A DNA stretch of 64,000 nt, taken from the NCBI GenBank assembly GCA_001858525.1, contig LAPX01000004.1, forward strand, positions 248,001-312,000. Reading direction: 5' to 3'. Shown piece after piece: positions 17,544-20,248 of the stretch. A program made the translations under genes and the position numbers. The notes under the pieces were generated by a model. It had not been told where the DNA came from, ran no database searches, and worked only from the letters and a program-made list of their open reading frames with translations. Each line of letters starts with the position of its first letter. The first letter of the stretch is position 1. This stretch comes from Vampirovibrio chlorellavorus. GTDB taxonomy: Bacteria > Cyanobacteriota > Vampirovibrionia > Vampirovibrionales > Vampirovibrionaceae.

Positions 17544-18899
17544 GTGGTTGACGTGGCGTTGAGACATCCAATAGTTAATGGCATGATGCTGGCCTTTGGG
17601 CTTGGCCTTCTGACACCCAATCTATCCCTGGCTGCCGAGTTGAATGGCTTTGCCATCAACACCCAGGATAAAAACGTCACCGTGACTTTGTTCACCGATC
17701 AACGCGTCAGCTACAGCACCGAACACCAGGGCAAACAATTCGCCATTATTCTGCCGGAAACCCAACTCTCTCAAGAACAAATCGACAATGGCCTTCCGGT
17801 GGTACTGGATAATAAAAATCGCTTTATCGGGCGAGCAGTTCCCCATGGCGACGGCAAAGTTAAAATTATTTTGCCCAACCTGACGGCCAATGAGTATTCG
17901 GTTTCCGTTCAACAACAACACGGCAAGCAGCCTCAAAAGGTGGCGGTCAGCACCCCGGAAAAACTGAAGCCCCGGCCAGCGGTGACCAAAGAGCCTGCCA
18001 GCCACTTTGAGCAAGTGGCCGCTCATTTCCCCAAGCCCAGCCCCAAAAAAGAAGTGGGCACTGCCAGCATCAACAACAACCGACTGAAGCTGAATCCTGC
18101 GCCAGTTCGGGCCACTCAGGGAGGGGTCTGGAATCCCTATGTCTATCGCCCCACAGATTTCCAGCAGGAGCAGCAGCCGGTGCGTAAGGCCAGCAAGCCA
18201 GTCCAATCCTATACCACCCCCCGGACAGAACCTGTCAATACCATCTCGGTGGCGGAATCTATACCTGAGCCTCAACCGGAGGCCAGCGCCAAATCCGATC
18301 CGCTGTGGTATTTGCACGCGCTACCGCCAGCGCAATCTGTCCCCGCCGATGCACTGCAAGGCCCGGCTAACTCGATTGAGGCCCAAGCCAATCCGCAAGG
18401 TGCCACTCACACTGTCCAGCCGGTTAAAGTGGGCCTCAGTGACATCAAGGAACTTACCAGTGAAGTCCGCAAAGGCTTCCAATCGATTCCCCCCTGGCTG
18501 GTAATTACGGTGGCTGTTTTCTTTGGGGGTATCGGCCTGTTCTGTGTCATCGGTGGGCTGGTGCTTTTAAAGGTGCTGTTTACTCAGGCCCGCCAATCCT
18601 TGGGCAATGGGGTATTCCCGGCCAATATGGGCTTAGTCCAACTATATCCCCACCCTGCAGCAACCGAGAGTGGCGTGACTGGTGAATCGGAAACTCCGGA
18701 AAAGTCCACACACGGCACACGGCCCAGCTACGGACAAACCTCGCTTAAATTTGAGGACAAAAGCGCCATTAAAGCGCTGGATTACCTGAAAGAATCCCCG
18801 GTTAACGTGACTCAGGCCATCCACAACACTCGGATTACCCGGCTGCAAAATAGAAGAAGGACAGGGTTCAGGGATTTTCCCAAGGTTTCCAATCGCTAA
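17544..18899 (+). CDS. AMIN-domain-like secreted/membrane protein, function unknown
   Basis: A 451-residue protein. A signal peptide (NGMMLAFGLGLLTPNLSLAAE) is followed by a beta-rich region of about 100 residues (LNGFAINTQDKNVTVTLFTD...FAIILPETQL) that looks like an AMIN domain, found in periplasmic proteins of type IV pilus and cell-wall systems. A long Pro/Gln-rich linker follows, then one membrane span near residues 316-342 (LVITVAVFFGGIGLFCVIGG) and a basic cytoplasmic tail ending in NRRRTGFRDFPKVSNR. The start may be GTG at 17544 or 17553. Its stop codon TAA is the target duplication of the MITE that follows, so the original 3' end may have differed. Assignment of the AMIN fold is by eye. 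Confidence 0.6.
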   Translation: MVDVALRHPIVNGMMLAFGLGLLTPNLSLAAELNGFAINTQDKNVTVTLFTDQRVSYSTEHQGKQFAIILPETQLSQEQIDNGLPVVLDNKNRFIGRAVPHGDGKVKIILPNLTANEYSVSVQQQHGKQPQKVAVSTPEKLKPRPAVTKEPASHFEQVAAHFPKPSPKKEVGTASINNNRLKLNPAPVRATQGGVWNPYVYRPTDFQQEQQPVRKASKPVQSYTTPRTEPVNTISVAESIPEPQPEASAKSDPLWYLHALPPAQSVPADALQGPANSIEAQANPQGATHTVQPVKVGLSDIKELTSEVRKGFQSIPPWLVITVAVFFGGIGLFCVIGGLVLLKVLFTQARQSLGNGVFPANMGLVQLYPHPAATESGVTGESETPEKSTHGTRPSYGQTSLKFEDKSAIKALDYLKESPVNVTQAIHNTRITRLQNRRRTGFRDFPKVSNR

Positions 18900-19040
18900 G
18901 AGACTATCCGAAAAGTTTTCAGTCAGGTGAGGCTGCAAGGCCGAAGCAGCGCAAGCAAGACGCTTATACTGATAAGTAACGCATCTGAGCAGCACACAAA
19001 TGCAGTAGACACCCGGAATGGAAGCTTTTCGGATAGTCTC
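18900..19040. mobile_element. MITE with 16-bp terminal inverted repeats and TAA target duplication
   Basis: A 141-bp element bounded by perfect 16-bp inverted repeats, GAGACTATCCGAAAAG at 18900-18915 and its complement at 19025-19040. It is flanked by the direct repeat TAA (18897-18899 and 19041-19043). A short palindrome CTTAT-ACTG-ATAAG lies exactly at the centre (18963-18976), so either strand folds into one long hairpin. It has no room for a transposase, so it is a non-autonomous element; the 3-bp T-A-A duplication fits mobilisation by an IS5-family transposase. The left TAA is the stop codon of the preceding gene. Confidence 0.85.
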
Positions 19041-19155
19041 TAAGGCCTACCTATCAGGTGTCGAATAAACCCCATCAAGACCTGCAGGCAAAACAAACAC
19101 GCTTTCGTCAACAAGCGCCGGAGACTCCCCTGACCACACGTTTGCACTTTGCTTG

Positions 19156-19207: not shown

Positions 19208-20248
<1,041 letters not shown>

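Follow-up and report, generated by a model that had tools for sequence, protein, structure and literature searches.

Two short bacterial repeats are among the closest described parallels to the element reported here. MITEPsy1 of Pseudomonas syringae is 100 bp long and is listed as 'IS5?' (PMC3189936), and the RUP repeats of Streptococcus pneumoniae measure ~107 bp and have ends that match IS630-Spn1 (PMC3049150). In the 64,000-nucleotide stretch of Vampirovibrio chlorellavorus DNA analysed here (hereafter the window), we characterized a 141-bp MITE with perfect 16-bp inverted ends and TAA on both sides (Table 1). The element itself is an ordinary IS5-type MITE of a known kind; its family in Vampirovibrio-like bacteria is apparently undescribed, and empty sites document a clean duplication of a stop codon. 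Very probably, this non-autonomous element was inserted in trans into the native stop of the upstream gene.

Table 1 Coordinates of the MITE and its surroundings within the window
Feature	Position	Strand	Remark
451-aa ORF ending in left TAA (in frame), no recognised domain	17544–18899	+	congeners have TAG at same codon
Left target-site duplication TAA, also stop codon	18897–18899		empty sites in G002 and G004
MITE, 141 bp	18900–19040		other host copies 69–94% identical to window copy
Left terminal inverted repeat GAGACTATCCGAAAAG	18900–18915	+	perfect match to right end
Central palindrome CTTAT-ACTG-ATAAG	18963–18976		from sequence and consensus fold
Right terminal inverted repeat CTTTTCGGATAGTCTC	19025–19040	-	perfect match to left end
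Right target-site duplication TAA	19041–19043
Glyceraldehyde-3-phosphate dehydrogenase (GAPDH) gene, downstream	19220–20248	+

The first-pass annotation had drawn the element, its ends and its TAA repeat to the exact base, and had rightly placed a palindrome at the midpoint, from which the centre CTTAT-ACTG-ATAAG deviates by no more than 0.5 bp. The predicted fold is stable on both strands (–60.1 kcal/mol, z –7.7 on the + strand; –58.3 kcal/mol, z –6.8 on the other). Across the 64-kb window, no sequence other than the two ends of the MITE matches the 16-mer end with ≤3 mismatches (0.23 expected). The element is short, non-coding and without a transposase, is bounded by terminal inverted repeats and a TAA/TAA target-site duplication, and has empty sites in relatives (G002 and G004). 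The further genomic copies that had been predicted were also found: there are nine dispersed copies in the host genome (a 28-contig draft of 3.03 Mb) and more in three of the four congeners (G001, G002 and G004), with none in G003 among the congeners searched. An Rfam search returned no match inside the MITE, the single hit being GlmZ at 15.8 bits (gathering 60) outside the element, and DNA similar to the MITE was not found in the plasmid records searched.

Copies measure 141 bp or 156–157 bp, the longer ones forming a subfamily with an insertion of ~15 bp, and are mostly 74–96% identical to one another, with two outliers at 57–77%. Two of them (L002 and L003) occupy different sites and share an identical sequence, indicating a fairly recent transposition (or copying) for this pair. 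Nearly all are flanked by a 3-bp repeat of TNA type (TAA, TTA or TCA); the duplication is exact in 10 of the 18 congeneric copies, with the other 8 showing an imperfect one, and the preferred target context has a pyrimidine before and G after (YTNAR). Six host copies, that of the window included, have empty sites in G002 and/or G004. A class-wide pattern search (382 genomes) revealed no paired ends outside the genus, apart from one weak pair (L038/L100) and scattered single ends; viral contigs with exact-end matches contained no paired element. A 20-bp micro-element, TAA-GAGACTGTCCGAAAAGCCTC-TAA, was also observed in the host directly past the stop of a 201-aa ORF (L025:1498–1523; contig C26, ~411942) and looks like two fused MITE ends. 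Similar 20-bp palindromes, such as TAA-GAGGCTATCTGAAAAGTCTC-TTA, occur around 1501–1525 of L062, L069 and L066 in G001, a genome with one full MITE copy.

The two arms of the MITE are paired in 94.5% of the cells of the copy alignment. Doubly changed arm pairs number 12; shuffling gave 3.2, and none of 500 shuffled sets reached 12, although the relatedness of copies can inflate such a count. In L005 and L008 the same change is present in both ends. Binding of both ends by one transposase would explain this covariation, as would correction between the palindrome arms. Because the arms change together, the ends remain matched even in diverged copies, and perfect inverted ends should therefore not serve as an age marker. 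The earlier reading of the perfect ends as a sign of a young or still mobile element thus falls; 8 internal positions of the window copy depart from the 141-bp consensus of the family.

The relationship to IS5 was investigated through the ends. An exact-match end scan of 84,980 species genomes pointed to Methanosarcina and a planctomycete, both of which carry short elements that share the ends of the MITE and have unrelated interiors, and a DUF4096 search in those genomes located intact IS5 elements, whose transposases were assigned with NF033580 (transpos_IS5_3, cut-off 110 bits). Methanosarcina sp. DH2 carries an intact IS5 of 872 bp (L285:939–1810) with TTA/TTA, GAGCCTATCCGAAAAGT at both ends and a 272-aa transposase scoring 261 bits. 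Another intact element, also 872 bp long, is flanked by TAA/TAA (L278), and one of 866 bp from an Opitutaceae bacterium (L268:915–1780) scores 202 bits and has no clear target-site duplication. The ends of these intact elements (866–872 bp; Methanosarcina, Opitutaceae) are 15/16 identical to those of the MITE, and a 477-bp deleted IS5 copy (L147) has one end that matches at 16/16; all lie outside the genus. Only the ends match: the MITE interior does not resemble any of the IS interiors tested, all of them other than intact congeneric ones, and this comparison lends no support to an origin by internal deletion.

Several observations accompany these elements. The transposase stop TAG lies inside the element's own terminal inverted repeat in L285:943–1761 and L091:304–708 (proteins ending ...FG and ...TG before the stop), an arrangement that may constrain the sequence of the repeat. 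A planctomycete MITE family of 137–141 bp with the same ends (L143 and G538 contigs C30, C4 and C70) has several copies within ~10 kb and also much shorter (~70-bp) deletion forms. Methanosarcina loci L129, L130, L140, L150 and L158 hold clustered 128–135-bp MITEs with these ends, some in longer duplicated stretches; a 2388-bp pair in L129, considered as a full IS, turned out to be several MITE copies. Host contig C5 (15.9 kb) contains two decayed IS5 copies that belong to different groups (L087 and L092) beside RHS-like repeat protein sequence and may be a mobile-element graveyard.

An autonomous IS5-family partner with the same ends had been expected in the host genome, and its IS5 affiliation agrees with the matching-end transposase elements of other taxa; its residence is unsupported. 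Searching the host (28-contig draft) for a full IS disclosed no two ends, at ≤2 mismatches, spaced as in an IS, and IS5-type transposase remnants occur on contig C5 alone. Nor was an IS with the MITE ends found in the genus, where the IS5 copies detected are decayed or truncated; the closest congeneric IS5 end, 12/16 identical to the MITE end, belongs to L091, a remnant at a G001 contig edge whose right end reads GAACCTATCCGGTAAG and adjoins TAA. Two other congeneric IS5 copies considered as partners (L088 and L090) have unrelated ends, and ISDds9, considered as a matching IS, yielded no clear ends. This absence makes a resident partner less likely and leaves the case for IS5-type ends as it was. 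It would also suit a transposase of another family as the mover of the MITE, an idea that becomes very improbable given that, in several lineages, IS5 transposases are bordered by a TNA duplication and by ends identical or very similar to those of the MITE. The second alternative concerns the upstream gene, for which Pfam and NCBIfam yield nothing at E ≤ 1, leaving the 'AMIN-like' label unsupported; the left TAA is indeed its in-frame stop, as annotated. The insertion had been thought either to duplicate the native stop or to create the gene's current ending. In the two congeners with an alignable empty site at this locus, the sequence reads ...CGT TAG CAC (G004) and ...CGC TAG CGT (G002), with the element absent and the stop at the same codon, demonstrating that this stop position is native and was duplicated, not created, by the insertion. 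An empty site lacking the TAA had been named as evidence against the proposal; literally, both sites do lack it, yet TAG is an interchangeable stop and its position is unchanged. Two further host copies lie in native stops, those of FeoB (L006) and a DegT aminotransferase (L005). The FeoB stop reads TAG in four congeners, and since two stop-codon insertions thus have empty sites reading TAG rather than TNA, we infer a TAG-to-TAA change, before or after insertion, at both loci (the window gene and FeoB). At the DegT locus, the G004 empty site is TTA on the + strand, the TAA stop of the minus-strand gene and the same as the left repeat, and the right repeat TCA leaves the gene closed with TGA. 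A truncated or re-ended upstream gene with a newly made TAA, for which the TAA here and TAG in congeners would speak, is barely credible and, as to stop position, already refuted, both by the insertion-free stops in G002 and G004 and by the native FeoB stop at that position in four congeners.

The same analysis was extended to stops across the family. Copies lie exactly in a stop at host L001, L005 and L006, at L039 in G004, at L040 and L041 in G002, and at planctomycete L235 and L238, that is, in 6/18 congeneric and 2/7 planctomycete copies. These 8 of 25 compare with 2.05 expected from same-locus intergenic TNA sites (P 7e-5; 2e-3 with the null restricted to YTNAR). In a 464-kb host sample (400 kb plus the window), stop codons make up 4.6%, 5.8% and 9.0% of intergenic TNA, YTNAR and CTNAG sites, respectively; under these nulls P is 1e-4 to 4e-3 for the 6/18 and, with the discovery copy left out (5/17), 8e-4 to 0.015, the last for the strictest class, CTNAG. 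Gene calls relied on ORF length and the first copy had already been seen when the question was posed, and we regard the excess as a lead, a modest new pattern short of proof. Chance or an ORF-calling artefact, favoured by the small numbers, by the P of 0.015 and by a domain check that left out one ORF (L040, 141 aa), is unlikely in view of seven further stop-codon copies, three single-ended remnants that also abut stops (L025, L029 and L031), an excess in the independent planctomycete family, and Pfam domains in the affected genes that are clear in five and weak in a sixth. The excess most likely reflects the YTNAR target together with selection against other landings, the latter presumably its cause. 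A different reading is co-option of the MITE as a functional RNA, be it an RNase III site, a terminator or an mRNA 3′ stabiliser, with its post-stop placement selected for function. The very stable hairpin, the strong arm covariation and the excess at stops, single-ended remnants included, would all fit, but the stem is followed by TAAGGCC in place of the U-run of an intrinsic terminator (GC stem plus U-run), and prediction called neither a promoter nor a + strand terminator, which also speaks against the suggested role of the folded RNA as a transcription stop. Moreover, sister species differ in its presence, the six stop-codon copies of the genus split 3 to 3 in their orientation to the gene, and covariation is equally expected from one transposase binding both ends or from arm-to-arm correction; co-option appears improbable, and the MITE is taken as a tolerated parasite.

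Taken together, insertion in trans into a native stop would proceed as follows. An IS5-family transposase of the NF033580 (transpos_IS5_3) type would recognise the GAGNCTATCCGAAAAG ends and duplicate a 3-bp TNA target, with YTNAR preferred; in the window this target would be the upstream gene's native stop. The protein would be unchanged because the duplication left one stop copy in frame, and the hairpin would thus begin directly past the stop; a conserved block upstream of GAPDH starts ~90 bp past the MITE and is uninterrupted. The over-representation of the family at stops, relative to random intergenic TNA sites, would be explained most simply by the fit of TAA and TGA to TNA and the harmlessness of such landings. 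Observed directly were the copies with their target-site duplications and empty sites, the covariation of the arms, and autonomous elements of other taxa that share the ends; we infer the identity of the transposase that moved the MITE. Counting against this account are the partner found in neither host nor genus, the interior unlike those of the IS tested, the two empty sites that read TAG, and the imperfect duplications of 8 of the 18 congeneric copies. Tentatively, and with some doubt, IS5_3-type transposases may, via YTNAR, turn stop codons into a safe harbour where MITEs land recurrently. If so, long hairpins would come to stand systematically right after stops and could rewrite mRNA 3′ ends genome-wide. 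The family also offers a testable reason for the harmless build-up of mini-transposons beside genes.

Compared with known systems, the MITE shares 15/16 to 16/16 terminal bases, the 3-bp TNA duplication and ends of the form GAGNCT-TCCG with IS5-family insertion sequences of the NF033580 type, and differs from them in its 141-bp length, its lack of a transposase and an interior unrelated to the IS interiors tested. MITEPsy1 is likewise short and non-coding, with inverted ends and a tentative IS5 link, whereas its duplication is 4 nt and its inverted repeats 18 nt, as against 3-bp TNA and 16-bp ends here (PMC3189936). RUP, too, is mobile, hairpin-forming and MITE-like; its ends resemble a resident IS, the end-matching IS630-Spn1, whereas the MITE described here has IS5-type ends and no partner IS found in its host (PMC3049150).
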